Assembly: GCF_000835495.1 (NCBI RefSeq)
Contig: NW_015622542.1
Location: forward strand, 5,292,485-5,356,484
DNA length: 64,000 nucleotides
Origin: Cladophialophora immunda
Lineage: Eukaryota > Ascomycota > Eurotiomycetes > Chaetothyriales > Herpotrichiellaceae
Reading direction: 5' to 3'
Positions 347 to 30,818 of the stretch are shown here, one piece after another. Below the pieces are notes generated by a model, which was not told the DNA's origin, did no database searches, and saw only the letters and a program-made list of their open reading frames with translations. Numbering within the stretch: position 1 is the stretch's first letter; every line of letters begins with the position of its first letter. The position numbers were made by a program, and so were the translations under genes.

Positions 347-1079
347 GATTTTAAGCTGGTCCGCTAAAGTTGGTCTCGAGCACTATATTGAATATTCAGT
401 CCGAGAGCCGGTTGCAGCAGTACAGACTCACTCGAAGATGTACTGGCAGTAACTAGATGCAGGAGGCTTTAATTTCGAGGTGTCTACACTGCAATCATAC
501 TCTGCGGTGCCTATGGACAACTTGGCACACTTACTGCAAAGTTCCACAACGGCTCAATGGCCAACATCTGACAGTCATGCTTAACAATTGATGCGTGAGG
601 AATCAAAGGTGCGTTTCATGGCAACCCTGCATCCGAGATTGTGCACTACCATCATGCCGTATCTGGTGCACAGAGACTTGTCCATCAACCCGTGTTTCTG
701 GGGACTAAATCTGGAGAGAAGACAAGGCTCCACAAAATATTCGGCCCGAAGGACAATAACGCCGCAGCCAGGCCCCACTCATGGAGAACATCATGTTAGC
801 AACCATATTGGCGGTAGCTCTCGGCCCGCACGCCAATGTCTGTCGGTCCGAGAGACGAAATGCCCAGACGTCGAGGGAGAGAACCCGCGTCGTTTACCCC
901 GGATTGAACCCCGGATTTGACTCCTTCAGGGCTTCTCCATATCGCCATCTGCTACAAGTAGGTGCAGAATCCATATCACAACCAAGGCCAGGTGATCTCC
1001 TGACTAAAAAGTCTCACTCAAAATTCGCTGGTTCGCTATCAAACGGCATTCTGCGCTCTATTCTGTCCTCGCAGTCACC
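347..1079. promoter_or_regulatory. Divergent promoter with TCGGNCCGA palindromes
   Basis: Intergenic DNA between the SDR and the MFS carrier. It holds TCGGCCCGA at 741-749, TCGGCCCGC at 821-829 and TCGGTCCGA at 843-851. The same palindrome recurs in other promoters of this cluster and is probably the site of a cluster-specific zinc-cluster regulator (inference). No gene is seen here. Confidence 0.6.
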
Positions 1080-2927
1080 ATGGGAATGCCTCGAGCAGGT
1101 GAAGATGACGTTGAAGGCAAAGTTGTCGAGCTTGAAGAATGCCAAAACGTGCCGGTCGTCGAACAAGGCAACGGCGCCGTGCTCCTTGACGTTCGCCACG
1201 TAAAGGGGCAACCAGGAGGAACCAATTTGAAGTTGACCGAGGACGGCCATGTCAGTCCTCCCGGACTCAATGATGACTTGTCCCGTGTTCTGACTCCGCT
1301 ACAGACTGTCCTCATCCCACAGCCCACGGATGATCCCAATGACCCACTGAACTGGTCCGATCTCAAGAAGAATCTGCTCCTGCTCGCCATCAGCCTTTCA
1401 GCGTTTCAAAGCGACTTTCAAACCGCGGCAGGCGTCCCAGGTGTCGGCCTCCAGGGCGTTGAGTGGCATCTCTCTCCCGTCCACGTCAACTACGCAGGAA
1501 ATCTCAATGTATTGATGAAGTACGCTTGATGGATCCCCTTCACCCATCGATTCCTTGACGTGGGCTGACTTGGTGTTTGCCAGTGGGATTGGAGGACTCG
1601 TCTGGATTCCTTTGATCTACTTCTGGGGTAGGGCTCCTGTATTATTCTGGACCAGTTTCATCGGCACCTTTCTCACTTTGGCGACTTGCCTCGTCCCTGA
1701 TTTTGCCGGTTACTACGGCCTTCGAGCGTTGATGGGGTTTTTCCTCTGCTCCGGTCCCGCGGTCGGCCTGGCCTTTATCCAAGACATCTTCTTCCTCCAC
1801 GAACAGGCGAGGAAGATCGGCATCTGGATCTTCGCGGTGCAGATCTGTCCCTACTGCTCTCCCATGTTTGGCTCCTACATCATTGCCGCCACGGGATCCT
1901 GGAGAGCCACTTTCTGGATGGTGTTTGGCCTGGAAGCCTTGGTGCTGCTTTGCCTGGCCCTCTTCCTGGACGAGTCGTTCTATCGAAGGGACCTGCCGCT
2001 GTCAGAACAGCCCCAGCGCGGTAATAGGATCCTGCGACTCCTTGGTTGGTGGCAGCTTCGGGTCCACCGTCAATACTTTGCCAACTTCGCAAGCTCATTC
2101 CTCCGGGTGTTTGAGATCCTGCTCAAACCAATCATCATCCCACTGTTGGTATTCTAGTTAGTCTTCCCAGAGCCCCCTTTCGAGCCCACAAGTGCTGACA
2201 CAGTCAAAATCCAGCTTATTGAGCTGTATGTGGGCCATCGGCATCAACCAGTCGTCTGCCATCCTCTTCGCCGAACCCGTGTCCGCGGGGGGCTATGGAA
2301 TGAGCCTGAACTCCACCGGCTACCTGTATTTCGCGCCGATTATTGCCGTGCTCATCGGCGAGACTTTGGGTCATTTCATCAACGACGTGAGTTCTCCATC
2401 TCCCGTTTAAACATAACCATCGCGACTTTTGATCAAATACATACGATGAAGTGGTGCTGAACAACCAAATTCTCTTCCAGTGGACCACCACTCGTTACGT
2501 CCGAAAGCATAACGGGGTTTTCAAGCCGGAAGCTCGTCTACCACCAGTCTACCTGACGCTTTTCCTCACCGTCCCCGGTCTCATCCTGGTCGGCCAGGCG
2601 TTGGAGAAGCATCTTTCGTGGGTCGCAGTCGCCTTCGGCTGGGCCATGTACACCGCCGCGGTCATGATGTTTTCCGTGCCCTTGTTCGCCTACGCTCTTG
2701 ACTCGTACCGCAACGCGCCGGGCGAGGTGTCGGCGTGGTTCAACTTCGCGCGCATCATCGGTGGGTTCTCGGTCGGGTATTTCCAGCAAGGCTGGGGCTT
2801 GAGGGCCGGGTTTGACGTATCCTTTGGCGCGCAGGCCGGGGTTGTCGCATCGGGAGGGCTCATCATTCTCGCCCTCCAGATCTATGGAGAGAAGCTCAGG
2901 GCGAAGGGGGGTGCGCTGCGAGACTGA
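1080..2927 (+). CDS. MFS transporter, DHA1/HOL1-like
   Basis: Four exons (1080-1519, 1584-2156, 2215-2386, 2481-2927) join in phase to give 543 residues. The N-terminal cytoplasmic segment ends in PTDDPNDPLNWS (about residue 82), a signature of fungal drug:H+ antiporter-like carriers, and about 12 hydrophobic segments follow. Family knowledge: proton-coupled import or export of small organic molecules at the plasma membrane. The gene is divergent from the SDR and followed by an NTF2-like gene; three operator-like palindromes lie 230-340 bp upstream of its ATG. Inference: it takes up the cluster substrate, while the TRI12-type carrier at 24172-26231 may export it or an intermediate. The direction of transport cannot be read from sequence. 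Confidence 0.85.
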
Positions 2928-3398
2928 ACCTGACTAGCATTATCGAGATCTTATCGTTACCAAGTACAAGGCCAACTGCGAGACCATCGAGAGGCATACT
3001 TTTCTGCAGGGGCTTGTGAGTGCATAGTAAAGTTCGCCTTGGCTCAGTTCTGAGCCACAGAACCTGCAAATATTGCCCTGCGATTTACGTCTTGTATTAC
3101 GAATCAAAGTCTCTAGTCGAAGTATGGTTCTGACAAGAGATTGTAACACCAAGCTGCTTACTCGAATACTGACTTGCATTTTTGTTTCTTAATTTTTTGT
3201 TTCTTTCAGAATTTTCCCTATTTTTGTGCAAAGTGCCTTCAGACACTGGACAGAGGTCCTACGAAGCTGACGCCTTCCTCGGCCCGAAACCCATCGAAGA
3301 TGAATCTGTTCCACTTCCGCTGCCGTGATATATATCAGTTGCGGAAAATAGTCGTGCTTGTAGCCTTCGAGTTATAGTCGCTAGAGATTCCTCGTCCC
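2928..3398. promoter_or_regulatory. Intergenic region with one TCGGNCCGA site
   Basis: It contains the 3' end of the MFS gene and the promoter of the next gene. TCGGCCCGA at 3279-3287 sits about 110 bp before the ATG at 3399. No gene is seen. Confidence 0.5.
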
Positions 3399-3974
3399 AT
3401 GCGGAATCAAGACGAAACTCATCTGGAATCAATGTCATCTACCAACCACCCTGTCAGCTGGCCCGCGAGCCTCAAAGGGGAAGTCATAACGTTGGTAGAC
3501 TTATTCTTCCAACTGCTCGATAGCAAGTCACCGCAAGCTGGCTCTCAGCTGGTTCAAGATGTGTTCACCGAGGACGGGAAGTTCTTTTCCTCGTCGGGAT
3601 ATTTCCAAGGACAAGGTACGTTGTTGTGCGACACCTCTCTTCCATCCTGGCGAGAAGTCAAGAATTGGAGATGTTGGATCCGTGCCTGAACCTTTGCTGT
3701 CATAGACATCGCCTTGTCACGAGAGGGCATCTGGGAAGCATTTGAGATCCGCAGTCACGAGCTTCGCAAGATCTATTTGAACGATGCCAACGGGCAGGAC
3801 TTGGATCTGTTGATCGTGGGAGGGGCGGTCATTAAGCCACATGGTGGAAAGGCGACGGCGCTGGAATTCATTGGCCGCGCCGTCGTCCAAGATACGATCA
3901 AAGGTCCCCGGATCCGTTACTATCAGCCGATCGTGCCAAATTCGGCTGAGCAACCTATTCTTGCGAATGTTTGA
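3399..3974 (+). CDS. NTF2-like (SnoaL-type) small protein
   Basis: Two exons (3399-3615 and 3706-3974) give 161 residues; an in-frame ATG at 3432 (MSSTNHP...) is an alternative start. The order is a helix with VDLFFQLLD, then VFTEDGKFFSSSGYFQG, REGIWEAFE and later beta strands. This matches the NTF2/SnoaL cone fold, in which small proteins bind or isomerise hydrophobic substrates. The exact reaction cannot be assigned. A copy of the shared palindrome lies just upstream, so it is probably co-regulated with the catabolic genes. Possible roles are a cyclase, dehydratase or isomerase acting on an aromatic or keto intermediate. Confidence 0.7.
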
Positions 3975-6909: not shown

Positions 6910-9350
6910 ATGTCTACACCGCCGGAAAGGCAGAAAAGCGACAGGGTACCTATTGCTTGTCGAGCTTGTAGGCTCCGAAAAGTGAGATGTAAGTTGCTAT
7001 GCTCTGTGGCCAGCCTGCTGTTTGCCTAAACCCCCTCTAGGCTCTGGCGGCCATCCATGCAGACATTGTGCGAAGTCGACAGCAGAATGTATCTATCCAC
7101 CGAAGCAACGTCGGACAAGGACAAGGACGACGCGAAACAACCACGCGGCTGTCAGCAGAGATGTGGTGCCCCTATCCAAAGACCAGGAAGCTAGACACGA
7201 TTTGCCAAATTCTTCCTGTGTCTCTGTGGAGAGACCGTCCTCGTCAACCAGTGCCGAGCATACCGTTGCGGTGGTGCGAGAAGGTGTTGCGACAACACAA
7301 CAGAGCATCCCATCGACCTCGAACTCGATATCGCCTTCACAGGCTCCAAGAGTACAAGACTGTGAATCCTCATTAGGTCCAGCACTGTCACTCCTCTCTT
7401 CGGGAGGGCCATCCTTGGAGAAAGCTGCGACTGCGAGGCCTGCTGGAGTCGATTTCTCTTATGGCTCAACTACTCCAGTGGACAGCGTGGCTCGGATGGG
7501 GGACGCTGCTGTCTGGCTGTCTGCCTGTACTAATGCTGGGATCGCATGGGTGTGTGAGACGACCGCCAGCCTCACTTTTGCCGACATGACAGAGAGATTC
7601 AACCGAAGCATTGAGCCATGGGCTCCAACCAGCGCTTGGCCTGGTCTGGGCGCAGCAAGAGCGGAGCCGAGCGAGGAAACTGCCTGGGAGTATGTCAACG
7701 GTGAGTTATTCCCGCACCAACACCACAGCATCGGGGATCCTATTCTAAATGACAGCCTCCGTAGCTTTCTTTGAAAATTGCTGGGAAGCTCGCTTAGGTC
7801 TCATCCATCGCCCAGACTTTGAAGCCCAACTTCAAGCGCATTTTCTCGACGATTCCTCCTCCCGCAATGATTATGCCGAGATCGCTCTCCGCAACGTCGT
7901 GTTTGCGGCTGGCTATCGAAGTATAATGGCCAAGACTGCAAAAATCCCATTCCACATAGCCCGAAAAGCGGCCTGGGAAGGCTATTTCCAGAACGCGTTG
8001 TCGGTCTTGACTGGACTCCTCCTGTCGCCTTCAAGACTTATGGTCGTACAAGGACTGGCATTGATGGTATGGCGCCTTTGATTTGGCAGGATATAACTGA
8101 TCCTCGAAACATTAGGCTTGTTACGTCGAGGGGCTTGGAAGCCCTGATATTCAGCGCGTGCTATGCCATAATGCGGTTCATGCGGCACTAACGCAGGGCT
8201 TACACCTTGGTCATGAGTCAGACCATCGGGCGAGCTCCTCATCGGACAACCATCTGAAAAAGACCTGGGTGTGGTGGGCAGTGTATGCGCTAGAAAAGCA
8301 TCTCTGTCTCGCCAGCGGAAGGCCATCGATGATTGACGACTATATAATCAGTGTTTCAATCCCATCGAAAGTCCCACCTAACAGCACCATATATCTAGAA
8401 GCCACCACATTAGCAACTCGGCACGCAAAGATCTGCTCCCGAATCCTTCAGGAAATCATGTCAACAAAGGCACAAAGGTTATCTCCCCATGAGCTTCTCA
8501 ACGTCGTGAACGACATCGACCGACAGCTCAAAAGCCTGCTTGATGACTTTCCATCCGACCTCCAGGTTGGTACCCTTGCCAAATTATCTGAAGAGACACA
8601 TCCAATGGCCCATCGTCTCCACACCTTGTATCTCTACTTCGCAATCCATGGCAGTTTATTGGCGCTTCACTCGCACTTTTTCTACCCCTGGCTTTCCGTC
8701 CGGCTTTGTGATCGTGGTCCAGATGTTGCTTTGGAGGCGCAGTTGCATGCTTCGTCAAAGACGGTGACGGAAGCTGCCCGGAAGATGTTACTAGCAGTCC
8801 GGATAGTAACCACAAATGCAGCCACACCTACATGGCTGGCAGTTACTTATCCTATATATGCACATCTGAGCTTATTTGTGCATGTGCTGAAACATCCGAC
8901 CTTTCCCACCGCCAGCGCCGACCTTGGCCTCCTCGACATCTGTGCGGGCCATTTTGGGTACATTGATTTTATGACCTCTTCTGAGATATCCATCTCTCTA
9001 GCAAGAGAGTCCGTCAACCTCGCGGCTAAATTCGTCAAAGCTGCCAACAAAAGACACGACAATGGTCAGACCTCCAGATTTAACCAGGGGCGCGGAGTCA
9101 AAAGCGCGAATGCTCAGAGCAAGCGATCAGACAACTATAGCCCCCAGAATACAAACTCGCGGTCGGTTTCTGCAGCACTGGGCCAGGTAAGTGGGCGTGT
9201 CGAGGAAAGCCGTCTCCGCCATTGCTAACCTGTCACTCTTTATAGGGGAACTTTGCGAATGTTGATGGTGACTGGAATATGCTGCCATTTCTGGACACTT
9301 TGGGTGCGGACGACAATACTTATGACAGTTTCCTTCTCCAACGTCCCTAG
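6910..9350 (+). CDS. Zn(II)2Cys6 transcription factor
   Basis: Five exons (6910-6988, 7041-7700, 7765-8066, 8116-9186, 9246-9350) give 738 residues. The first intron splits the zinc cluster: CRACRLRKVRC joins SGGHPCRHCAKSTAEC, giving CX2CX6CX5CX2CX6C at about residues 17-43, followed by a basic TRTRTTR stretch. The fungal_trans region follows (IHRPDFEAQL, VVFAAGYRS, WWAVYALEKHLCLASGRPS). Family knowledge: nuclear regulators that bind CGG half-sites. It lies inside the catabolic cluster, divergent from a paralog without a DNA-binding domain. Inference: the pathway-specific activator that reads the CGGNCCG palindromes spread over the cluster. Confidence 0.92.
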
Positions 9351-10038
9351 GTCAGGGCTATTTATGTACTTCCATTGTCCGGAATACATCCTGTTGTGGT
9401 CTTGAGATCTAATCAATGGTCCGAAACTTCCGACATCACATCGTCCGGTGTTGTAAGGACCGTTGAATTTGCCCGTTTGAAGTAGAGTAGAGCCGACAGA
9501 GACCGGGGCCGATTGCAGGACACGGTGTACATCTACACGAGCTATATCAGAGCATGGACCTGGAACTACTTCCACTATCACCTGATTGAGACAGTGAAAT
9601 TTTCCATTTACCCTTTTTTCACTAGGAAGCTGATGTGCCATCGTTCTCACTTGGCGGTTATATTCAATGAAGCAAGATTATGACACTGGCTGAAGCGCCG
9701 AAGTAGTGATATACTGCAGAGAGTAACTGCGGACCGAAACCCCATTCACCCGGTCCGTGACTTGTGACTACATGCTTTTCACGATCAGAAGCGTCACCTA
9801 TGGCTATTTCCACCTACATTTGACATTGTGGCCAGGCCACATACATGATACGGACCGAGCCCAATCCGACACGCCGTACCAGTGGTCCCAGCGCTATACC
9901 CAAGGAATAGGGGAGTTCGAGTCTCCATATGACTCCAAACGTTTCATATACTGTAAGGGATTCTGATGTATTCACTTCTTGATTCCCATTAGCCCCCCCC
10001 CCCCCTTGACCCCCTATTGTGCCGTCTCGAGAACAAAA
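9351..10038. promoter_or_regulatory. Promoter with three CGGNCCG sites
   Basis: It holds GCGGACCGA (9729-9737), CCGGTCCGT (9750-9758) and ACGGACCGA (9850-9858), 180-310 bp before the monooxygenase ATG. The half-like TGGTCCGA lies near 9418. No gene is seen. Confidence 0.6.
9993..10005. repeat. Homopolymer C tract
   Basis: Thirteen consecutive C lie about 35 bp before the ATG of the monooxygenase-hydrolase gene, inside the likely 5' leader. Such tracts are length-unstable and error-prone in assemblies. Confidence 0.9.
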
Positions 10039-12494
10039 ATGACGGATAGCAACCAGTCTAAAGTCGTTGTGGTGGGAGCCGGCCCGGCAGGGCTTCTGCT
10101 TGCGCTGATGCTCGCGAATCACGGCATCAGTGTCGACGTGGTAGAAGCGATGGACGCAGTGGATTCCAGGCCGCGTGGTGCAGCGTACGGTCCAGCGGCT
10201 GTCAGGTACGTCCATGAAGTCAGAGATCTTGTTTTGAGTTGCCCTATTCGAGCAGGGCACATGTATTTCTGGTGGGCTGTAGGTTGATATGTACGCCGCG
10301 CAGCGTCCTCCGCCGTGCGGGTGTCCTGGACAGAATCCGCCAACAGGGCCTGTCCGTCGACTCGTTCACCTGGAGGAAAGTGGACGGCACCGTCATCAAC
10401 CGCCTGACCGGGATGAGCAGAAACCCTGATAGGGGCGGGTTTGTCTGTCTACCGGTTTACGACCTGGCGTGTCTCCTTTACGACGAACTCTCTCGGCTCC
10501 CGAACGCGAAGGTGTATTGGAACCACAGAGTGACGGCCGTTCTTCAGAGCGAAACAAGAGCCTGGGTCGAGTGCGAGAATGGCCAAAGGTTCGCGGGCGA
10601 TTTCGTCGTCGGCTGCGACGGTGGCACATCGACCGTGCGGAAATCCTTGTTTGGCAGCAATTTTCCAGGCCACACTTGGGATGTCATCATGGTCGCTACG
10701 AATGTAATACGCGGCTCCCGCTGATTTAATCGCTACAAGTGGAGAGAGAAGATTGATATGCTGATGTTTGCGCGATTTCAGATCCGCGGCTACGATTTCT
10801 CAAAGTTCGGCTGGGAAGATACGTCCTGGATTGTCGACCCTGAGCATTGGTCGGTGGTAGCTCTGATCGACCAGCAAGGGACATGGCGTGTTTCCTACGG
10901 AGAGAAGGGTTCGCTCTCCCACGACGAGCTTTACGAACGGATGCCGGCTAAGCTGCAACGAATTCTTCCCGGGAATCCCACCCCCGATCAGTATACCATC
11001 GAAAGATTTAGCCCCTACAATCTACACCAAAGATGTGCCGAGAAAATGCGAGTTGGTCGGATCCTGCTCGCAGGTGACGCTGCGCATCTGAACAACCCCA
11101 TGTATGTATTTGCACGTCTCGACCCTCATGCTGGGCTAATGGTTTCAGGGGGGGTCTCGGTCTCACCAGCGGCATCTCAGACGTGGGAGGCTTGGTCGAT
11201 TGTCTCCAGGGTATCCATGACGGCAAAGCGGGCTATGATATACTCGACCAATACGATCAGATTCGGCGTGAGATATACAGAACCGTCACCGATCCTGTAT
11301 CAACGGCCAATCTTGCTCGCGTACAAAGTGATCCAGCGGCGCTGGTCGGTGGTCAGGACCCTTTCTTCGCAAAGCTTGATAAGTCTCGCGAAGATGCCAG
11401 CGTTCTTGATGAGATTGAAAAGGTCAGTGTTGACTTGTCTGTATGGTGGGAAATATGAGGCTGATTGAATCAGAACGACATGGGGCTTCTTGTGGACTTT
11501 ACTCAATTCTACCACAAACCTGAGGTGAATGGCCACACCAACGGCCTGGCTAATGGCCATACTTCTCTCACCTGCTGGGACCGACTGGTTCGCTACGTGT
11601 CGGCGAAGACTGGCCAGACACGGTATGGTGAACCGCTGGCAGACTTGACGGCAGACATCGATCAACTGGCGGCGGAGAGAACTCTGAAGGTTCGGCCCTT
11701 AGAAGGATCCAACTGGCTGGCCGCAAGACCATCAGACGAGGAGGAGGATCTCGTAAAGGAGCTTCTCGGTCCTTTCACTCCAAGAGATGTGCCCATAATC
11801 CGTTGCACCGGCCTCAACTATCGGACTCATAGTAAGTCTAGATTTTTCTCGCACTTGATCTCACTAACTGCAAATCTTAGTTATTGAATCTAACTGGGAT
11901 ATACCAACAAATCCGACATTGTTCATCAAGCCCGGACAGGCCGTCGGCGACACGCGTGCTCCCATCCCGGTCCCCAAACTCTCTCAATCCAAGTGCGACT
12001 ACGAAGGCGAGCTGACCATCGTCATTGGGAAAGACGCTAAGAATGTCAGCGAAGAGCAGGCCCTTGACTACGTGGCGGGATACGTTGTTGGGAACGACGT
12101 CTCATGCCGCGACTGGCAGCTTGACAAAGACAAAGCCGGCATGATGCCCCAATGGTGTTTCGGCAAGTCGTTCGATAAATACGCCCCCGTGGGCCCGGCA
12201 ATCGTGAGCCCCAGGATTCTGGGCGACGCCTCAGGACTGCGGCTCCGAACATATGTGAACGGCGAGCTCAGGCAGGACTCTGACACGTCGGACCTATGTT
12301 TTGGCGTTCGAAAGCTGGTCAGCTTCTATAGTACTGGTCAGACGCTGGAAGCGGGAAGTTTGATCATGACAGGTACACCGGGTGGCGTTGCAGCGGCCAT
12401 GAAGACCCCCAAATATTTGCAGGACGGGGATGAGGTAGTGGTCGAGATTGAGGGGATTGGGAAGCTGAGAAACGTCATCAAGTTTGACGAATGA
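10039..12494 (+). CDS. FAD aromatic monooxygenase fused to FAH-family hydrolase
   Basis: Six exons with introns 10206-10303, 10704-10781, 11102-11148, 11423-11473 and 11832-11880 keep one frame of 710 residues. Residues 1 to about 390 are a class A flavoprotein hydroxylase: VVVGAGPAGLLLALML near residue 9, the GCDGG motif near 160 and GDAAHLNNPMGGLGLTSGI near 288. After a linker rich in Asn, Gly and His (about 400-415) comes an FAH domain with TGLNYRTH, DYEGELTIVIGKD (metal-binding acidic residues) and VGNDVSCRDW. The fourth intron (51 bp, GTCAGT donor) removes a stop at 11456-11458 and joins the domains in phase 0. No promoter-sized gap separates them. Inference: one polypeptide hydroxylates an aromatic ring and hydrolyses a C-C bond later in the pathway. 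Two separate genes remain possible if this intron is not spliced. Confidence 0.75.
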
Positions 12495-13150
12495 GAGACA
12501 GAGTCATCCGTTTGTGTGGCCAGAAATCAGCTGTGCTCTCTACGCCGTACCCATCCATGTTGGAAGACGTGGTGTGGGTTTCCTGCCAATTGGCGGTGTT
12601 GTCTACATCCCATTCCTGAAGATGAAGCCTGGAAATCCTAAGCAGCCATAAAATGGGCCGTTCTCGACCCTCGAATTGCAAACCACGATGATCCCGTTCT
12701 CGCGGACCGAAGTTTTGGATGTCTCGGGCCGTTTTGGGGAAGACACTGCGGGCCGAAGACGGAACACTGACTGCGTCAACGATGACATGGCATTGAAGTG
12801 GAGGTGTCTTAACAGGCTGATCAGGCTTGGCACGACAAGGTGTCTGGAGGGTTTAGCACCTAATAACCCGGATAAGCACTGCGAGCTTTAGGTGGATGGC
12901 CCAACTAGGATGGAATAGACGCAATGCCTTTTTCGTTTCAGCGACCAATGAGAATTGATATGATGGTGGCATTGTTTCAAATTATATTGTAAAGATATAA
13001 ATCACTCGTAGAATTCCGAGCGAGCACCGTGCGAATACAATTGCGTTGAGTTCTTCAAGGCCACATCGTGGTAACTATTGACGACTTACCTGTCTCGTTC
13101 TTAAGATCCCGACTTCCAGCTATTTCTCTCGATAACAAACCAAATGCATC
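12495..13150. promoter_or_regulatory. Intergenic region with three clustered CGGNCCG sites
   Basis: GCGGACCGA (12702-12710), TCGGGCCGT (12724-12732) and GCGGGCCGA (12748-12756) occur within 55 bp. They lie about 400 bp before the aldo-keto reductase ATG and about 200 bp after the fusion gene stop. No gene is seen. Confidence 0.55.
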
Positions 13151-14953: not shown

Positions 14954-16352
14954 ATGAATTCTTTCATCATAAAAGACGTCTGCCTTTTCGACGGAGACAA
15001 GGTGGTGGAGAACAGCAGCGTGCTTGTAGAGAATGGCATCATCACTGAAGTTGGTGACATCGTCAGCAAAGATGGAATTCCCGTCGTATGCGAGCCTGGC
15101 CACACGCTTGTTCCAGGCCTGATCGAGGCGCACTGCCATCCATATGGCAATGTCAAGCTGCCGGAACAGTGCTTTCGGTTTGGCATCACAACGTTGATGG
15201 ACATGCACAACGTCCACGAGCACGCAGTTCAGCAGAAACAGTGGGCTAGAGAGAGGAAGGACTTCCCAGACGTCAAAAGCAGTCATTACGCAGCCACCAT
15301 TGCAGGCGGTTGGCCGGCTTTCGTGGAAAAGAAGTTGAGCAAAGATGGAGTAGGTATTTGGTGGAACTACACCCTCGCAACAGTCGATGTGCAAATGCAG
15401 CTGACAAGCCCCTCTCTCTTTCCGTTTAGCATGAGAAGTTCGACAAGTACCCCAACATTGCCACCGAAGCAGACGCCGAACCATACATTGCGAGATCACT
15501 GCAGAACGGTGCCGACTACATCAAATTGATGCACGAGGCGGGCAAAGCTATCGGGATTCCTGCAGGTCTCATCGCACAGCCGACCGAAAGTGTCCAGGCG
15601 GCGGTGGTGCACGCGGCACATCAAAAAGGTCTCAAGGTCGTTGCCCACGCGCTGTCGCTCAAGGACACGATCGAGGTGTTGAGAGCTGGGGTGGACGGCC
15701 TCGCACATACATTCTTCGACGAGCCCATTACGCCCCAGGTGATCGAGTTGTATCAACGAAATCGCGCCTGGTGTAACCCAACACTAGGCTGCTCCGGCAG
15801 CATGACTGGCGAGTCATTGGACATCGTCAAGAAGTTCTCGGAGGATCCGAGAGTCCGGAGCCGAGTGCTTCACTCGGATGTGCAGGTCATGCAACATTGC
15901 ATGCACTTGAAGGCTGACACCGCAAAATGGGACTACGCCATTGACAGTGTGCGGCAATTGAGAGCGGCGGGTGTCAAAATCATCACGTAAGTCTACAGAA
16001 GAAAGCGCTCTCATGCGGGAAAGCAGTCTGACACTGTTGCTTTCTCATTAGGGGTTCCGACTCCGCTTCAGGTGCGCCAGGCCTGGCTTTTGGTGTGAGC
16101 CTACACATCGAGATGTTCCTGCTGGTGTACAAAGCCCGAATGACAGCGCTGGAAGTCTTGAAATCTACAACTAGTGCCACTGCGGATGCTTTTGGATGGT
16201 CGGATCGAGGAAGAATAGCACCGGGTCTCAAGGCTGATCTTGTTCTGGTGGAAGGAAATCCCATGACCGACATTACAGACATGCTGAATATTAGAGGGAT
16301 TTGGAGAGACGGTATCAAATTTGAGGGGCATGAGGGATTTCCCCTGTCATGA
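14954..16352 (+). CDS. Metal-dependent amidohydrolase, imidazolonepropionase-like
   Basis: Three exons (14954-15349, 15430-15986, 16052-16352) give 417 residues. Ligands typical of the superfamily are all present: HxH in LIEAHCHPYG (near residue 58), a Lys in DYIKLMHEAG, His in VVAHA and GLAHTFFDE, and the final Asp in GSDSASGAPG. A C-terminal composite strand follows (GLKADLVLVEGNPM). Family knowledge: cytosolic hydrolysis of amide, lactam or cyclic amidine bonds with one or two metal ions; the substrate is unknown. Its position inside the cluster suggests it opens or deprotects the starting compound or a ring intermediate (inference). Its promoter lacks the shared palindrome. Confidence 0.88.
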
Positions 16353-16516
16353 TTAGCTGATTATGTACAAGACGAAGAACCCAAATGGATTGTGGTAGGA
16401 TTTACTATGAGGACCCAAAGGGAAAATTGGCTTCAACTTGGTTTACTTTAATGATGACCATAACACTGTCGCCTCAGGACTTGCTTCTGCTATGGACACT
16501 TTCGCGCACGCGAATT

Positions 16517-17056
16517 CTAAGAAGCGCCCATCCCTGGAACTCCACTGCCTTTGACGTCGACACCACCAAATTGCCAAGGCTCTGCTGGGATGACGGCCGC
16601 AGCCATGCGTGCCCATTCAGTAGAGCTGACGTTCCTCCATGAGTGATCGACGCAGCGTTGAATGGCTGAGTCGCCGGGGCCAAGGATTCGTTTCTCCCCC
16701 GAGTTCAGCGTCAACTCCATCTGCCCCTGCAACACCACGTTGAAATTCACGCTGATGGTGCGGTGCGAGACCGAGTTGTACCTCGGAGGCAGGTCCAGGA
16801 TGCGACAGGCGAAGCCATTCGGAATCACGATTCCTGGCGGATTGTCAATCAGATGCTGATAGGACTGCAGGTCTTGCTCGCTGGCCAAGTCGACCGGGAA
16901 GCGCTGACAGCCGTAACAAAAGGTGATCTTCGTCCCGTCGGGTAGCTGCTTAGATGGAGGGTCTGAAGATATTCTGGGAGAGAAGACTGACACACCGTCG
17001 TCGTTGTTGGTGGTGAGATGTCGTTTCACAGCTGGAAGGCCTTTGGCATCTGTCAT
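16517..17056 (-). CDS. Small single-domain cupin protein
   Basis: A single exon gives 179 residues from MTDAKGLPAVKRHL. The ATG at 17056 is preferred because the frame upstream offers no other ATG. The cupin core is seen at about residues 95-150: SHRTISVNFNVVLQG, then GPGDSAIQRCVDHSWRN, with His and Gln positions that can bind a metal. Many fungal biosynthetic and catabolic clusters carry this type; no reaction has been firmly assigned to the family as I know it. It ends 164 bp from the amidohydrolase (tail to tail) and is divergent from the FAH-family gene at 17541, sharing a promoter with two palindromes. A ring-cleaving dioxygenase role is possible but unproven. Confidence 0.8.
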   Translation of the reverse strand: MTDAKGLPAVKRHLTTNNDDGVSVFSPRISSDPPSKQLPDGTKITFCYGCQRFPVDLASEQDLQSYQHLIDNPPGIVIPNGFACRILDLPPRYNSVSHRTISVNFNVVLQGQMELTLNSGEKRILGPGDSAIQRCVDHSWRNVSSTEWARMAAAVIPAEPWQFGGVDVKGSGVPGMGAS

Positions 17057-17540
17057 GTTTGATTCTTGAATGTCGTCGAGTCGAGATAAAAACGAGGCTG
17101 TCTTCAAAATAAATCAGCTAACGGCAGTTCTGTTGGATCAAAAATATCTTCTTTAACAGCCTGACCTCACTTCAGCCCACCCCAGGTAAACTGCTGGTCG
17201 ACAGAAAGGACAATGGTGGTAAGTCGACCGCTTTCGGACCAGACACTTTCGGGCCGACAGAAACCAAACGGCATGGAGTGCCCCCTGAAACCGAACTCGA
17301 TCTTCAATTCCAAACGATAGAACCCGTCAACTAAACCAGATATATCCACCGCGCGGGCCGTTTAGTTTGTTATGACAACTCCTCAAGACCCGAGTGCTTC
17401 CACTGCTTCCACTGGTACGAATCACTATCAACCGCAATCAATCATATAACACACTGCCGGATAAGTCTGTCTTTGGCTGCACATGTCAATTGCCTGGTCC
17501 AAATTGTTTTATCGACTCGTCTGTCTCCAGAAGAGAAAAG
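17057..17540. promoter_or_regulatory. Divergent promoter with CGGNCCG sites
   Basis: TCGGGCCGA (17249-17257) and GCGGGCCGT (17353-17361), plus the half-like TCGGACCAG at 17234-17242, lie between the cupin and the FAH-family gene, within 180-310 bp of both starts. No gene is seen. Confidence 0.6.
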
Positions 17541-18617
17541 ATGCCGGCTAAGTTCACAAGACTTATACGATTCGAGGATGCGCAAGGAAAGATTCACTAC
17601 GGCGAGGCTGGCCCCGACTGGGAGAAGGATCTCCATGGCCAGACCGTCCCAACCTACGATATTTCAGACCCATGGGCTTCTGAATTTCCTTTGACTGGAA
17701 ATCATGTTCAAGTGGCAAAGGTTGTCGCAGTTGCCGATCTCTGGTGCTTGCGTGTTGACTGACCATGGTTGAGATTCTATGTCCACTGGCAACAACACCT
17801 CTCATGTACGCCATCGGACTCAATTATAAATCGCATGCGGAGGAGGCTGGGGTAAGTATTTATCTCCACTCAATACCACACAAAAGTGGTTAATGGTGAG
17901 AAATTAGCTTCCAATTCCAGCATATCCCGTCGTCTTCACCAAGTTCGGTGGTGAGTACCTTCTATTCCTCGATCCGCACCGGCCAGGGTGGCTGACGAGT
18001 GCAGATATGCTTGCCGACCCGTACCAGGACATCCCTGTCCCACCAGTGGCCAAATCCGAGATGGACTACGAGGGAGAACTCTGCGTCATTCTGGCCAAGG
18101 ACGTGAAAGACCTGTCCGACGACGACGACGTCTCAGACTCTATCCTGGGCTATACCGTTGGAAATGATGTTTCGGCACGGTTCTGGGCCTGGCCAAAGCA
18201 ATCCGGAACTCAATGGGGCCTCTCCAAGTCGTTTGATCACTTTGGGCCGATTGGGCCGGTCATTGCCTCGCCTGCGTCGATTCCGAATCCACAGAACTTG
18301 CAGCTGAAGACCTTGGTCAACGGGGAGATCAGGCAGAACGGCAATACCGACAACATGATCTTCGACATTGTCACCATTCTGAAGCATATGAGTCGAGGTA
18401 CCACGCTCAGAAAGGGGAGCGTCATCATGACAGGAACCCCGGAGTATGTCCCCCTTCTTTTTTTTTCATCTGCAAAAGACTCAAATAGCCCTTGGACTGA
18501 CGTGAGCATAGTGGTGTTGCTGCTTGCGCCAAACCTCAAGTCTATCTGAAATCTGGGGATCTGGTCGAGGTTGAAATTGAGAGAATTGGGAAGATCGGGA
18601 ACAAGATGATCTACTGA
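17541..18617 (+). CDS. FAH-family hydrolase (acylpyruvase-like)
   Basis: Five exons (17541-17720, 17774-17851, 17908-17950, 18005-18443, 18512-18617) give 281 residues. The start MPAKFTRLIRFEDAQGK matches the usual N-terminus of the short fungal FAH-domain proteins. The core has AIGLNYKSHAEEAG, MDYEGELCVILAKD (acidic metal ligands), VGNDVSARFW and GSVIMTGTPDGVAA. Family knowledge: Mg2+-dependent hydrolysis of acylpyruvates, fumarylpyruvate-like compounds or oxaloacetate. The first intron uses a weak GTTGTC donor. Its FAH domain resembles the C-terminal half of the fusion protein at 10039-12494. It is divergent from the cupin gene. Confidence 0.9.
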
Positions 18618-19041
18618 TTTGAGCAAGGTGCAAAAGCTGGCAGGTTGTCTGGAGCGCACTGGTATTTGTCGACATCAGCTCGACAACTTTGTTGTTGTTG
18701 AGTCGAGAACAGCTCGAAAACTATCAGGCTGGCCAGCGCAACGGAGAGAGGAGTAGGATTCCGTGATCTCAACTAGAGAATTGAGGCATGGCCTGTCTAT
18801 TGATACATGACTCGATCACTTGAAGAGGTCTTCAAGGTGGTCGAGGTGCGAAGGGCATGATATAAACATCCTAGTGGCTGACTACTGCCATGCCGGTTCC
18901 TAACACCCGATTGTTGCCTTAGCAGTCATGATTCTTGGATCACATATTGAGCTGCGGCCAAATAAATACCAACGAACTCTGTCCCAATCTTCTTTACAAG
19001 GCACGGTTTGAATATAGTTGCTAGATACCCAAGCCGCTTCT
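18618..19041. other. Convergent 3' spacer, nothing recognised
   Basis: A 424-bp region between the 3' ends of the FAH-family gene and the thiolase gene. No coding or repeat signal is seen. Confidence 0.4.
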
Positions 19042-20499
19042 CTACAGTTTCGCCTCTGGATGGTGTAAGGCCTGCGCCGTCTCGCCCAAGGCGTAATCAT
19101 TCCTCCGCCGACTTCGGACTTTCTCTGCCATCTGGCTCGTGATTGTTCTAGCCTCTACAGCCGGATTGTATCCCATGCCACTGAGCCGGGCAATCTCCTC
19201 CTCACTTTGCCTCACGCCAATGTCGGTGTTCTTTCGTCCATCCGCTCTCTTGTATATGGTCACGACGACTGCTCCACCCAGCCCCAAATTATGTTGCAGC
19301 GCCATGCCAACATTCCGGACCAGTCTCCCGTTGTTTGCCCAACCGCGCAATTGCCAGACCAACTCGGCGCACTGGGCAAGTCCTGTTGCTCCAAGTGGGT
19401 GGCCTTTGCTAATCAGTCCACCAGAGGGGTTTACCACCACCTTCCCCCCATAAGTGATATCTCCATTCCGCACCATATGATGTGCTTGACCCGCGTCGCA
19501 AAAGCCCAGTCCCTCGAGGAGGATGAGTTCATTGGTGCTGAAACAATCGTGGATCTCGCAGACGCGAATGTCCCGTGCTTGAACGCCTGCTTCGGCAAGC
19601 GCTGCTTGCGTTGCCCGACGCGTCATATCGTTTCCCACCAGGTCGATCGCATTCCCAGAGTAAAGCTCGGGGGAATCAGTCATCAGAGCCTGGCCAGCCA
19701 TGAAAACCGCGTGTGTCTGCAATTCCGGGTGGCGGGATTGGAGATATCGTCGCGAGACAAGAATCGCACATCCGGCACCGTCAGAGGTCGGGCTACACTG
19801 CAGCTTCGTGAGAGGCGGGTGAATCATTGGCGAGTTTTCGATCTCCTCGAGGCTGTACACCGTGTTGAACTGGGCATACGGATTGCGGGCCGAATGCTGG
19901 TGCGATATCCGGGCAATTTCCGCAAAATCTCGAGCAGATGCGCCATGCCTACCCAGCGGAATTTAGGAGGTCAGTTCAAAGATATTGGAAGGAAATTTTC
20001 TCCCTTACTCCTCCATATACTGTCGCCCGGCATTCGCAAAGAGCTGCACGTTTCTCGCGCTGCCATGTTTTCCCCTCGTCTCCTCCATCATTCGAGTCAT
20101 AAGGCCGAGCGCACTTGGACGTCCGTCTCCATTGTCGCTCTTGATGGCTCCTGCCTGCATTGTCTCGAAGCCGAGTACCATGACGACGTCATAGATCCCT
20201 CCACGGATCAGCGAGCGGGCGAGGTGAAGACCCGTACTGCCAGTGGCACAGGCATTATTCGTATTGTAGACTGGTATATTGGTCATGCCAAACTGATAGA
20301 AGACACGCTGGCCGGATGCAGTCTCGCCGTACGCGTAACAGGCAATCCCTGCTTCGACATCATCATAGTTGATGTGGGCATCAAGGAGAGCCTTGGTGCC
20401 TGCTTCAAAGCCGAGCTCAGGGTACGGTCTCAGTTGGCGTGGTCTGAGGAACTTGGTCAGACCCACCCCGAGGACAAAAGCGTCATTGGGGGAAGACAT
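19042..20499 (-). CDS. SCPx-type thiolase with PTS1 signal
   Basis: Two exons (20499-20009 and 19948-19042) give 465 residues. The start MSSPNDAFVLGVGLTKF fits the thiolase fold. The nucleophilic Cys is in NNACATGSTGLHLAR (near residue 90), followed by CEIHDCFSTNEL and GGLISKGHPLGATG near the C-terminus. This is the lipid-transfer/thiolase (SCPx) branch without an SCP2 domain. The last residues are PEAKL, and AKL is a canonical peroxisomal PTS1. Family knowledge: CoA-dependent cleavage of 3-ketoacyl-CoA. It is divergent from an acetoacetyl-CoA-synthetase-like gene that also ends in AKL, which suggests a two-step peroxisomal route from a beta-keto acid to acyl-CoA units. Confidence 0.9.
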
Positions 20500-21058
20500 C
20501 TCGCTCTCAAGCAGGAAAATCGAGGTAAAGATCAAGGCTGCTCATCAACTGAACTATTGATCAGATAAATTCTTGATTCCAGACTGAACTGACGTCTTTT
20601 GGGGGAAAGTCTCGGATGTTTCTCTGGTGGCTTGGGACCGACGGAGATGATGGCAGATCCAACAGGGTTCCAACCCATGTCTATTCACGCTGTTGCCGAG
20701 ACGGTTCAACATCTGTCGAACATCGAATGAGACTTGAAAGCTATTGCTAGAAACTCGGAGCGGCAGGGTCTCGAGTCTCCATTGCTGGTCTCGGGACAGC
20801 CATTTGGAACTTCGGACCGAAAGGAGGCAAAGCACCTGGTTGTCGAATTGATGCCGAGATCGATCTACCACGGCCCAGACATTGAATCTCATACCCCATC
20901 GACTCTTCAACTGTAGTAAAAGCTACTTGGGTATCAGCGCGGGCGTAAGTGTTGCAGAAATCATATTCAATGTTTTTTTCCATGAGCATCCTCCCTTAGA
21001 CAGCAGCCTCGAGCCTTGCCAAGACTTCACATCTCAACCCGTACTATAGACTACTCCA
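20500..21058. promoter_or_regulatory. Divergent promoter with perfect TCGGACCGA
   Basis: One perfect palindrome at 20812-20820 lies between the thiolase and the ligase, about 310 and 240 bp from their starts. No gene is seen. Confidence 0.6.
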
Positions 21059-23760
21059 ATGGCACCAAAACCGACTTATGTACCTCCTCCAGGCTTGCGG
21101 ACACCGTTGGAAGACTTCAAGGATCTCGTGAATAGCAAGCATAACCTGCACCTTAGTGAGCATCTACCTTGATAAGCCCCACTCCAAGCTTCTGATTGTA
21201 TGTCGTGTTAGAAAGCTATGCCGACTTGCATAGATTCTCGGTGACGCGGTTGAATGACTTCTGGTTGACCGTATGGGAGTTTACGGGCGTCATAGCAACC
21301 GTCCCTCCTTCGAAGGTGAGCAGCTTCTAAGACTGAATCCATCGGAGACGGATGTTGAATCGTCCCTCTAGGCGATAGAGGATAGTGCTGCCATTGACCA
21401 ATTCCCGGTTTTCTTTGAAGGCGCTCAATTGAACTTCGCCCAGAATATCCTGGACCCGAAGTTCAACGGTCTGGCAGTCGTCAACATGAATGAAAGCAAC
21501 TCGTCGTCGCCTGAGGAGTATTCATGGGATGATCTTCGTGAACTCGTGCGACGTTATGCTGCCTCTCTCAGATCATCTGGCCTGCAGAGACAGGAAGTCG
21601 TGGCGTGTGAGAACAACCCCAGACCCATTGCTTGGAACGGATCATGCTTACGTCTTGGACAGTGGTTGGCTCTAACTGCATACGCTCTCTCGCATTGCTC
21701 CTTGCTACCACGGCATTAGGGGCGATTTTTGCTTCGTTTGCAACCGACATGGGCTCCAAGGTGCGTACCAAGCACCAAGTCTGCCAAAAGAGAGAAATTT
21801 ACAACGAGCGCTAGCTACTCAGTGACCGCCTTCAATTGTTGCAACCACGTCTTCTGTTTGCGGAGTCGACGTATGTATACAATGGCAAGTGCCATGACAT
21901 TTCTGACAAACTCGATCCATCTATACAGCATCTTCAAGAGAGTGGAGGGACTAAGGCCGTCATCATCGGCTCCAGAGAGAGCCTAAAGTCGGAAACGTCA
22001 GTTCCTACAAGGCATCCCGTCATTCCGATTGCAATTATTGACTAAGCGTAGTGTTTCCTTTGAGGAGTTCCTGTCCCATGATAGCGGCGCATCCGTGGAT
22101 TTTGTGCAAGTACCCTTTGGCACTCCAGCTGTCATTATGTTCTCGTCTGGAACGACAGGAACTCCAAAAGGGATAGTCCACTCACATGGGGTAAGCCTCC
22201 TCTCGGTGACTTTGAAACATGCCGGAGAAGAAAAGCTGATACATTCAAGGGTCTCGTCGTGAATGGTCGGAAAGAATACCTCCTTCACAACAACCTTGGT
22301 CCTGGGGATTTAGCCTATCAGTACACAAACGTGAGTCCTAGTTGTTAAATGTGGGCATCACGTTGGCACTTATAACCGCAAAACAGATTGGGTGGACGTT
22401 GTGGAACATCTCGATTCACGCTTTGTTTGTCGGAGCCGCGGTCATCTTGTACGATGGCAGTCCGTTCTACCCGTCGCCTGAATCGTTCTTAAAAGCGCTC
22501 TTTCATCTTAAGTAGGCCGAACGCTTCACCATGATCCGAGACACAGATGCTGATGGCAGCAGAGTTACTTCCTTCGGCGCTGGTCCACGCTACTATGCCG
22601 AACTTCAAAAGGCCAAAGTGAAGCCAAGTCAGTGTCTTACCCAATGCCATCGTACCAGCGAGCCGAAAGACTTCCTTGCCGCAGAGAGACTGACTCAATT
22701 CTGGTGACTTTGCAGGAAAATATTGTCGGAGCCTTCATTCTATCATTTCCACCGGAGCAGTCCTCACTCCAGCCCTGGCGGAATGGCTTGTCGAGGCGTT
22801 TGGGCCCGTCTGTCAGCTCTCAATGTCCGGCGGCACTGAGATCTGTGGCTCGTTCTTGCACGGTACCCGCTCTCTTCCCTCGTATGCGGGGGAGTTGGCG
22901 GTGAGGGGACTAGGTATGGACGTGGCCGTGTTTGGCGCGGACGGCAACGAGCTGCCCGACGGCGAAAGCGGTGAACTGGTCTGCCGGAAGCCATTCCCAA
23001 ACATGCCGGCCATGTTCTGGAATGACCCTGTCCGGAAGAGGTATTACGACTCATACTTTCAGGGGTTCTCACGTAAGTAATCAGAGAGTTTTGCTTCTGC
23101 CCATTCAGATGCTCACACGGCGATACTTAGACGTGTGGACACACGGCGATTTTGTCCGAGTTAACCCTCAGACGAAAGGCATCTATGTCCTTGGTCGAAG
23201 GTGAGTAGCACCTAAGTGACATAAGAATATGTGGTTTTATCACGCTCATCCTTACTGACGTTGCCGGGCACAGCGACGGGGTGCTGAATCCCTCTGGCGT
23301 GCGATTCGGCAGCGCCGAGATCTACAATGTTCTCGGCTCCGCGAGGTTTAGCGGTTTGATCGCAGACGCTATCGTCGTTGGGCAGCAGAGGCTCTCGGCC
23401 CCTTACTCGGATGCAGCTGAAAAAGTGGTACTTTTCGTCAAATGCACGCCCGCAGCAAATACAGGCACGCTCCGAGTCCGGGAGGACCTCGCAGCTGCAA
23501 TCCGCGAGCAAATTGCGCGGGATCTGAGTCGCAGACACGTGCCGGCCTACATATTCGAGACCGACGTGGTTCCTTACAATGCCAACGGGAAGAAGCTGGA
23601 GATCCAAGTCAGGGCCATTCTGTGCGAGGGCGAGGCCGCGTTGCGCAGGCTGAAGTTGACGCAGGATGAGCTCCTGCAGCTGCGCCGCTATGTGCCCTTT
23701 TATCAGATAGAGAAAGTCGTTTCGCAGCTTGCGCAAGCGGGCACTGGGGCAAAATTGTAG
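21059..23760 (+). CDS. Acetoacetyl-CoA-synthetase-like ligase with PTS1 signal
   Basis: A gene of about ten exons. Recognisable blocks in order are FWLTVWEFTGV, FFEGAQLNFAQNIL, TTALGAIFASFATDMG, the AMP-binding loop VIMFSSGTTGTPKGIVHSHG, IGWTLWNISIHALF, STGAVLTPALAEWL, MSGGTEICGSF and the C-terminal GVRFGSAEIYN and NANGKKLEI. This order is that of acetoacetyl-CoA synthetase. A frame change near 22000 is explained by a 55-bp intron with a GTCAGT donor (about 21996-22050), and a TAG at 22514 lies in an intron (about 22513-22562). The protein ends GTGAKL, a PTS1. Family knowledge: ATP + acetoacetate (or a related keto acid) + CoA gives the acyl-CoA. The divergent thiolase is the natural next step. 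Confidence 0.88.
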
Positions 23761-24171
23761 AGTGGCCACATAGTGTAACAGAGAAGCAGATTCAAAACCC
23801 AAGGGATGATTTTTAGTTAAGGGATATGCTAACATACTTCAGAAACCTACTGTGGGACGACTCATCGAGGCAAGGCTGAGAACATGTAAGAATTTCTCAT
23901 TTATCAGACTCTCGTCCACTCTTCGTAGAGTCAATATAGACCTTGTGGGAAAGCACAACTATCGTAAATTTGTCTCCTACACAGCGAAGCCAACTAGTCA
24001 GTCGGTCATGACTAGTCAGCTGACAACATTGCTCCTACAGGTCTTCATCACATGGAGTCAAAGGAGTGAAAGAGCCGACGAAACAGTACTGGGGTAATGT
24101 TGATGGTGGAAGCCGAAGGCTAGTATCAAATTCAGACACCTTGTCCCGTTCCTTCGCAGCTAATTTCGACA
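23761..24171. other. Convergent 3' spacer, nothing recognised
   Basis: 411 bp between the 3' ends of the ligase and the TRI12-type carrier. No gene or repeat is seen. Confidence 0.4.
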
Positions 24172-26231
24172 TCAAGCGCGCCTCTCTGTTCCTGTTTGGC
24201 GATCCCGTTTCGCATGCAGCTCTTCGACCGGAGCGTCGACCCGATAATTCATGGTTTTCTTCATGTCGCCAAGGAATAAACACGCGAGGCTGCCCAGGAG
24301 ACCAATTGGAGCTGCAATGATGAACACTACCCTGATCGAATCCGCGTATGCCTGCTGCAAGGCACTGAAGCCTTTAGCCATGATTTCCGGCGTGACGCCT
24401 GGGACTTTGGCTAGCGCGACTGCCTGACCCGCAGTCAATGCCTGGATGAAGGCTGGGATAGAAGAAACAGGAAGCCCTGAGGCCTCGGCGGCCGCTGTGA
24501 TATACTTCGGCAGGTAGTGTTTGATTCGCGTATTGAAAGCGGCCGTGAATATAGCAGTGAAGATAGCCACGCCAATGGCGCGTGCGGTTGTGGTCACCGC
24601 CGAGGCGGTCGCAAGGACTTTGTGCGGGACGACCAGCTGTGCGCCGCTGACAGTAAGAACCAGAGGGGCTCCAAAGCCTAGGCCGGCGACACAGGCAAAA
24701 GCAATGGCGTTGGTTGATTGACCTGGTTGAACAGTGGCAAGCCCTACCATGCCCGCGGTCATAATCACGTTGCCGAGCAGCAATGGCTCCCGAATAGTGC
24801 GAAAGCGAGTACTAGCGTAGCCCCAAGGAATCGTAGAAAGTAATGCTGGGATCCAAGCCGCTTGGGATCGAAGAACGACGAGAATGGGATCCGTTGTGAA
24901 GAGAATCTGAGACCTGTATACGACAGTAGTCAGCCTTTGTAAGTCCTTCTGGTAGAAGATGGGGGACTTACATGATAGGATAAAAAATAGCAAAGGCAAA
25001 TATACATAGGCCTTCAACAAAGATCAAGAATGCGCATAAGATAAATGTTCTCGCCTTCGCCTTGCCCTCGCGGAAGAGATCGTGGTGTACAATGCCGGTT
25101 GCAGTGCCCTTCCACTCGTAAACGCCGAAAGCGATCAGGCCGAAAATCCCAATGATTAGGGTGGAAAGTGTGCGAGCGTCGATCCAAGTATACTGACCGC
25201 CTCCTAGGCTAGTGCCGGTGAGGAACAAGGTGAGCCCGATCATAAGGAGGCCGCAACCGACGAGATCAAGATGCATGACTTTGTGCCAAAAGGGCAGATT
25301 GTCCAGCTCTGTGTGCCGCTTCGGAGGTCGATATGCGATCAGGAGCGAGATCATGTTGGTGCCCCACAGAGCCGCCTGAAACCACTATAACATCGAGCGT
25401 AAATGATATGCTGTATATCCGGGAAGCAGATCTGTTCAAGACTTACGTAGAAGTCACGCCAACCGCTATGCATATTGCGCTTAGTGAGTGCGCCGATTGT
25501 CAACGGCCCTACAACGGTGGCGAGGAGCGCTGAGGCGTTCATGGCCGCCTGTGCCACTGATGGCTTTGGTCAGTTGACTGTAAGAAGGTAAACAAAAGTG
25601 TGAAGATATGTTGAACTCACTAGGTCGCCATCGACGTGGAAGGATTTCCGCAGGCACCGCATAACCCAAAGGCACTGCAGCAAAGCCAAAGCCGATCAAG
25701 ATGCTTGCTCCAATCAGTCGGTAGATACTTTCTGACCCAGGAGCAATGCATGCCCCGATGAAGGCAATTGCGCAGGTGCCCACGAGGAGGAGCTTTCGGG
25801 CCTGGAAGGCGTCGGATGCGGTGGACAGGATAGGTCCTACCACTGCTTGGACCAGTGATAGAGCATTGACGACCCATGTCTGGGTGGTGGTATTGAGTAG
25901 GTCGGTTCCGATATAGGTCAACTGGTGATGGAGAAACACCGTCAAAGCCAGACACGGTGCACGCGGGGTGTTCACGTACCACTGCTGGAGGCCCCTGAAG
26001 CGCCAGGACCTGAGTGAAAACCAACAGGTTCATTGCTGCGAGGGCGATCCAAGTGCGTGCATGAAGCTCTGGCTCAACCTCTTCCTGTTCAAACGTGAGA
26101 TTACCTTGGTGTTGGTCGGAATACTCCTCCTCCTGGAGCTCAAATTCGTTCTGCGATTTGGATTCGGCAGACCAGGTGATCCCACCAGTATAGGGATCTA
26201 TGGGGACTGTAGTACCATTGAGAGCAGCCAT
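24172..26231 (-). CDS. MFS transporter, TRI12/DHA2-like
   Basis: The start at 26231 (cacaATGGCTGC, MAALNGTTVPID) is preferred over an upstream in-frame ATG at 26303 because of its context. An acidic N-terminal tail is followed by up to 14 hydrophobic segments in five or so exons. VPLGYAVPAEILPRRWRP marks the TRI12-type fungal efflux group, and VVLRSQAAWIPALLSTIPWGY and GVAIFTAIFTAAFNTRIKHY are typical of its second half. Family knowledge: plasma-membrane export of toxic or secondary metabolites, or siderophore-type transport. It is divergent from the fumarylacetoacetase-like gene over a promoter with two palindromes, so it is probably the second carrier of the catabolic cluster. Confidence 0.85.
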
Positions 26232-26676
26232 TGTGGGAGACTGTGATGCAGAGAGACAAATGTGAGAGGTGCCCAAGGTGGATATGCAGGAGTAAATACT
26301 CATGCGTGCTTAGTACGCGCACATAGGATTCGGTAAGCGTTTGCGTCGGTCCTAAGGAAAGGTTCAGGCAGAGAGACAGAAGACTTCAACAATTGAACTA
26401 CCAGGTCCAAATCTAGAATTCAACTGCATTGAATCCGGGGTGTTTTTCGGCGTGGGGAGCTCGGCCCGTCATCATATGCGATTTAGGGGAAAGCGACACG
26501 ACTCTAAACTATACGAGTTCTGTCGGCCCGAGATCAACGAGACGCAAGTTGACGACATTCAGCCTTGACACCAAGCCATTTGTGTAGGTTATTTTATACT
26601 GAACTGACCTCCCGATTCACCTACCATGGCTGCTCTGCAGCGCGATCGTTGACGGCGCACATGCATTCTGATCATC
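26232..26676. promoter_or_regulatory. Divergent promoter with two CGGNCCG sites
   Basis: TCGGCCCGT at 26461-26469 and a perfect TCGGCCCGA at 26523-26531. These are the rightmost copies seen in the window and may mark the right border of the co-regulated cluster. No gene is seen. Confidence 0.6.

Positions 26677-29064: not shown

Positions 29065-30818
<1,754 letters not shown>

Follow-up and report, generated by a model that had tools for sequence, protein, structure and literature searches.

Zn2Cys6 zinc clusters typically read CGG triplets. Cluster regulators of the AflR and GliZ type use a TCG-type palindrome in promoters, with the spacings TCG-N5-CGA and TCGG-N3-CCGA. In the available text of two sources, PrnA, the regulator of the prn (proline) cluster of Aspergillus nidulans, is described with the site CCGG-N-CCGG and with two intergenic regions that carry three sites each (PMC5983819; PMC12941744). 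The accessible part of a further source lists CGGN5CGGNCCG as the site of CLR-1 from Neurospora crassa (PMC5468973), and the Fusarium promoter motif M18 (CGGnCCG), conserved in four Fusarium genomes, is assigned no function in the table available to us (PMC2853525). Here we describe a perfect 9-mer palindrome, TCGGNCCGA, with the core CGGNCCG (CGG-N1-CCG), which recurs in the promoters of a catabolic gene cluster of the black yeast Cladophialophora immunda, and we propose that it is the operator of TF-C, a Zn2Cys6 regulator encoded in the same cluster. The window, that is, the whole stretch of DNA analysed, is 64 kb long (C2:5292485-5356484) and lies within a 42.2-Mb genome of 39 contigs. Positive positions follow window numbering, and negative positions denote DNA to the left of the window start.

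Promoter sites and their consensus

The original prediction listed six perfect copies of the palindrome (741, 843, 3279, 17249, 20812 and 26523) and nine core sites. All fifteen are present by sequence search, the positions listed for the core sites being those of 9-mer starts, one base before CGGNCCG. The sites in question are as follows:

741-749, TCGGCCCGA; 822-828, core CGGCCCG; 843-851, TCGGTCCGA: divergent promoter of the SDR gene and MFS1
3279-3287, TCGGCCCGA: promoter of the SnoaL-like gene that starts at 3399
9730, CGGACCG; 9751, CGGTCCG; 9851, CGGACCG (span 9730-9857): in front of FMO2-FAH1
12703, 12725 and 12749, three core sites (span 12703-12755) with spacings of 22 and 24 bp: promoter of the aldo/keto reductase (AKR) gene
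17249-17257, TCGGGCCGA; 17354-17360, core CGGGCCG: divergent promoter of the cupin gene and FAH2
20812-20820, TCGGACCGA: divergent promoter of the thiolase gene and the acetoacetate-CoA ligase-like (AACS-like) gene
26462-26468, core CGGCCCG; 26523-26531, TCGGCCCGA: divergent promoter of the TRI12-type MFS gene and FAH3, the rightmost promoter sites of the window

These fifteen sites are intergenic, as had been claimed, but the claim does not extend to every copy: five further CGGNCCG copies, all in gene models, were missing from the list. Three of them (10080, 13800 and 19886) fall within the 25.8-kb interval, of which 15 of 18 copies are thus intergenic, and two lie to its right (34561 and 36937). 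The copy at 3279 is real, and its assignment was corrected: it precedes a small SnoaL-like gene that starts at 3399. Gene models were made with our own simple exon-chain predictor, with looser settings for local models, and their ends are approximate.

Together with two core sites in the left flank, at -4210 and -3047, there are 17 promoter sites, and for 14 of them the distance to the nearer start codon is 116-335 bp. The remaining three all belong to the AKR gene, at 435-481 bp from the start taken in the segment map (13187) or 399-445 bp from the likelier ATG at 13151. When these sites are pooled with five promoter sites from the related cluster described below, T precedes CGG in 26 of the 44 half-sites, and 34 of the 44 have a pyrimidine one base further out; the centre of the palindrome is free to vary.

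Close spacing is a further feature of the cluster. Site pairs with a gap of 11-21 number 23 in the whole genome, and four of these are found here; the reversed control pattern gives 53 pairs. Centre-to-centre distances in the four pairs are 21, 22, 22 and 24 bp, or roughly two turns of the helix. Among the other 19 close pairs, 13 were inspected, of which ten are in gene models and three are not (Fisher P 0.015). A spacing of about 100 bp was rejected as a special feature (gap 84-108, 70 pairs genome-wide and three here), as was a gap of 22-46 (48 pairs genome-wide, one here). One of the three inspected pairs outside gene models sits between FAD monooxygenase genes that diverge from each other (L011:1501-1530; C2:1856256-1856285), a possible regulon member outside the cluster. 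At L034:3245-3277 (C3:4523745-4523777), two core sites stand close together with a TF-C paralog on one side and a gene of unknown type on the other; their flanks are unlike TCGG/CCGA.

Enrichment between the genes of the cluster

The palindrome occurs 459 times and the core 7663 times in the genome, corresponding to 0.28 and 4.7 copies expected in the 25.8-kb interval, where 6 and 18 were found. The reversed control patterns occur more often (834 and 13711 copies), and the motif is therefore not generally abundant. Over the whole window the enrichment of the core is only slight (20 versus 11.6 expected, 1.7 times the genome rate, P 0.016); the enrichment signal resides in the cluster's intergenic DNA. 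We ranked every trinucleotide dyad with a spacer of 0-20 bases in 13 intergenic segments from 1 to 27082 (7180 bp; segment 1-1079 still included part of the SDR gene). CGG-N1-CCG came first of 41,282 dyads (15 versus 1.16 expected, P 2.4e-12), and the second-ranked dyad, CGG-N2-CGA, overlaps the same motif. With a revised map that includes the left flank (8937 bp), CGG-N1-CCG was again first, of 42,375 dyads (18 versus 1.39 expected).

A background of 112.8 kb was assembled from the window right of 28209, L021, L034, L035, L037-L039 and the outer parts of the C1 region that holds a related cluster. It excludes L042, L043 and the 3-kb loci, which had been chosen for their sites (in L042, perfect copies lie inside a gene model). 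The background holds six core copies in 52.6 kb of intergenic DNA and nine in 60.2 kb of genic DNA, and the perfect 9-mer was not found in it. The 17 promoter sites of the cluster, by comparison, fall in 9 of the 11 intergenic segments that contain promoters (7092 bp in all), for which 0.81 would be expected from the background. The five promoterless 3'-3' segments hold one site, at -944, possibly within an unmodelled gene end, and the genes (23,873 bp) hold three. Genome counts and background together bear out the claim that the motif is not equally common elsewhere, and its absence from the four convergent intergenic segments within the window agrees with the view that it marks a set of promoters. 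Of the first four loci with a perfect copy in the genome list (L001-L004), three have it inside genes and one upstream of a P450 gene.

A related cluster with the same sites

Searching the genome with TF-C gave 72 exon-level matches, the best of which outside the cluster is at C1:2953199-2954668 (35% identity, E 4.9e-80). Its neighbourhood encodes a FAD monooxygenase (FMO), a TRI12-like MFS transporter, a cupin, a regulator with its own Zn2Cys6 domain, a VOC protein and a SnoaL-like protein. Identity to the window's counterparts is 51% for the cupin, 47% for VOC, 41-64% by piece for FMO and 27% for SnoaL. One copy of TCGGACCGA and a core site precede the MFS gene, another TCGGACCGA and a core site precede the cupin gene, and a core site lies between the VOC and SnoaL genes. 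The promoter-bearing DNA of this cluster thus holds five sites, two of them perfect, in 3557 bp (three of five segments; 0.41 expected from the background). Two more core copies are genic, in the cupin and VOC genes. Since the palindrome precedes most genes of the window's cluster and recurs in a related cluster on another chromosome, the protein that docks on it is most likely the regulator encoded in the cluster itself.

Organization and predicted function of the cluster

The cluster begins about 4 kb left of the window and extends from about -4.1 kb to 28.2 kb, about 32 kb in all. The right border given in the original prediction stands, since only two copies, both genic, are found right of 26.5 kb in the window, but the left end had to be moved outside the window, where the sites at -4210 and -3047 lie. 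The left-flank stretch with the VOC and FAD monooxygenase genes is L020:5790-8724 (window -4210 to -1276). The genes are:

-4078 to -3398: VOC/glyoxalase-type gene (PF00903 match), core site in front at -4210
-2799 to -1276: second FAD monooxygenase, core site in front at -3047
346 to -292, minus strand: SDR gene
1080-2927, plus strand: MFS1 transporter
3399-3974, plus strand: small SnoaL-like gene that itself matches no Pfam family, sharing 27% identity with the SnoaL_2-like gene on C1
4271-6393, minus strand: TF-B, a TF-C paralog with Fungal_trans, zinc cluster not detected, head to head with TF-C
6910-9350, plus strand: TF-C, Zn2Cys6 regulator with Zn_clus and Fungal_trans, candidate binder of the sites
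10039-12494, plus strand: FMO2-FAH1, FAD monooxygenase fused to a FAH-family domain, genic core copy at 10080
13151-14377, plus strand: AKR, genic core copy at 13800
14954-16352, plus strand: amidohydrolase, promoter segment without a site
16517-17056, minus strand: cupin-domain protein, 51% identity to the C1-cluster cupin
17541-18650, plus strand: FAH2, FAH-family protein, ends approximate
19042-20499, minus strand: lipid-transfer-type (SCP-x) thiolase, genic core copy at 19886
21061-23760, plus strand: AACS-like gene, only 22531-23760 modelled, first part read by eye
24172-26231, minus strand: TRI12-type MFS transporter
27083-28209, plus strand: FAH3, fumarylacetoacetase-like

The adjoining stretch, 29065-33562, carries amidohydrolase, carbon-nitrogen hydrolase and Asp/Glu/hydantoin racemase genes, and the core site is absent there.

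Judged from the encoded domains, the enzyme set points to ring hydroxylation, cleavage, hydrolysis and acetoacetate recovery. The best named NCBIfam relatives of the FAD monooxygenases include 3-(3-hydroxyphenyl)propionate hydroxylases, the VOC-type protein is a possible ring-cleavage enzyme, and there are three FAH-family domains, one of them fumarylacetoacetase-like. The thiolase exceeds the cut-off of the lipid-transfer subfamily; all other NCBIfam matches are below curated cut-offs. The substrate can be named as a class only, and would be aromatic or aromatic-derived. FMO2 and FAH1 are one gene, and both domains are combined in three proteins (P0041-P0043) among the 120 of 1803 matches listed, one of the three coming from another C. 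immunda record. The cluster holds CLAIMM_04596. A match to a gene named in the paper on toluene and C. immunda was considered and set aside: its main text, as available, carries no CLAIMM_0458, 0459 or 0460 tags (PMC5595782).

The TF-B/TF-C regulator pair

The prediction of a Zn2Cys6 regulator at 6910-9350 was confirmed by Pfam, which finds a complete Zn_clus domain (1.7e-9) and Fungal_trans (4.5e-17). TF-C begins at 6910, and its zinc cluster is split by an intron at 6989-7040. The translation of 7496-9350 aligns with C. immunda PV07_04081 at 100% identity over 95% of its length. The public TF-C model (P0001) starts too late, missing the stretch 6910-7495, and domain-based surveys would overlook TF-C because that model is without the zinc-cluster part.

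For TF-B, Pfam gives Fungal_trans only. Its strand was scanned for zinc-cluster halves, and the single stretch that emerged is antisense to the first exon of TF-C. Zn_clus is recorded in none of the 13 TF-B matches listed, although such records are unreliable, as P0001 shows. All three divergent pairs of paralogous regulators that were read (TF-B/TF-C, L035 and L037) combine one member that has a Zn2Cys6 cluster with one in which none is detectable. By locus tag, relatives of TF-B and TF-C are immediate neighbours in C. bantiana and E. mesophila, and in C. psammophila a TF-C relative lies near an FMO (A1O5_08550 and A1O5_08547).

Proposed mechanism and alternatives

We consider it likely that the palindrome is the operator of a cluster-specific regulator, with TF-C as its predicted binder and controller. 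A TF-C homodimer probably binds TCGGNCCGA (core CGG-N1-CCG), each of its zinc clusters contacting one CGG. TF-C would activate, rather than repress, the transport and catabolic genes between about -4.1 kb and 28.2 kb when given an aromatic or aromatic-derived substrate. Cooperative binding would be possible at promoters with two or three sites, which include the four pairs spaced by about two helical turns. The TF-B/TF-C pair itself would stand outside this control.

Several observations weigh against this proposal. The gene models are self-made and approximate; within the cluster three core copies are genic and one (-944) is in a promoterless segment; and neither the TF-B/TF-C divergent region nor the amidohydrolase promoter segment has a site. 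In the related cluster on C1, sites are likewise missing from the promoter segments of the FMO and the regulator, and CGG-N1-CCG is only 45th of 32,303 dyads (P 0.002). Finally, no TCGGNCCGA was found in five 10-kb regions around more distant TF-C paralogs (L034, L035, L037, L038 and L039), which together hold eight core copies, three of them intergenic. The idea that the TF-C family as a whole shares the site was rejected on these grounds: the site tracks the closest TF-C relative, in one positive case.

TF-B might contribute to the switch, either by dimerising with TF-C and holding it off or by sensing the inducer, so that occupancy of the sites would be set by the TF-B/TF-C balance. Such a role adds to TF-C binding of the operator and does not compete with it, and we put it forward tentatively, as somewhat doubtful. 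The C1 cluster has the site, yet a second regulator was not recognised in the 30 kb read; the partners encoded on the minus strand on C3 and C6 cannot clearly be placed nearer to TF-B than to TF-C; and annotated models can miss a zinc exon, as P0001 does. More speculative still is a general scheme in which black yeasts carry a duplicated aromatic-catabolism module, with a Zn2Cys6 activator acting on TCGG-N-CCGA and gated by a divergent zinc-less paralog (as dimerisation partner or sensor), and with copies whose operators have changed running other clusters of the genome.

The palindrome could instead be a genuine operator that is bound by a regulator not linked to the cluster, such as a factor with a wider role in aromatic or carbon-source control, with TF-C acting elsewhere or through protein contacts. 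The siteless TF-B/TF-C promoter is in keeping with this, as are the L011 pair between FAD monooxygenase genes and, as far as its source is available, the Fusarium CGGnCCG promoter motif, both of which suggest that the site may serve outside the cluster. We nevertheless judge an unlinked binder unlikely, given that the motif is concentrated in two clusters, each with a close TF-C relative, and that perfect sites number zero in the 112.8-kb background. Accidental clustering of a CG-rich palindrome, through chance or base composition, could be read into the modest 1.7-fold rate over the full 64 kb and into two other site-dense places (C1:3.95 Mb and C4:5.08 Mb), but is highly improbable in view of the dyad ranking, the background density, the replication on C1 and the fact that the close-set sites of both other places are inside gene models.

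Comparison with known systems

TCGGNCCGA was not found in literature text, with subscription literature mostly outside the scope of the search; CGGNCCG appeared in four papers and spacing variants in two, and a description of this regulon was not found as judged by titles and abstract beginnings. Compared with AflR- and GliZ-type regulators, the arrangement here is TCGG-N1-CCGA, and the genes are catabolic. M18 of Fusarium has the same core but, in the available text, is an entry in a genome-wide list and not the operator of a cluster. The CLR-1 site, as listed, contains CGGNCCG, whereas an extra CGG at N5 is present in none of the 22 promoter sites (17 here and five on C1) on either strand. 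The full PrnA site CCGGNCCGG is likewise found in none of the 22, and identity with either full site was rejected.

If the proposal is correct, it provides an operator open to testing, and an outline of a regulon of about 32 kb, for a large uncharacterised catabolic cluster of a hydrocarbon-associated black yeast. The paralogous cluster and the zinc-less partner would also make this a compact case of regulator and operator divergence following duplication. The original prediction called the one-base spacing unusually tight beside CGG-N4 to N11-CCG sites; PrnA of A. nidulans, as described in the accessible text, has it in CCGG-N-CCGG (PMC5983819). As in that system, a Zn2Cys6 regulator belongs to a catabolic cluster in which inverted triplets lie one base apart, CCGG-N-CCGG containing CGG-N-CCG; unlike in that system, so far as it is described there, the flanks here are TCGG...CCGA, the pathway is another one and the cluster is larger. 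The spacing itself is thus already known from PrnA, and the operator described here would be a further natural example of a zinc-cluster protein acting on CGG triplets one base apart.

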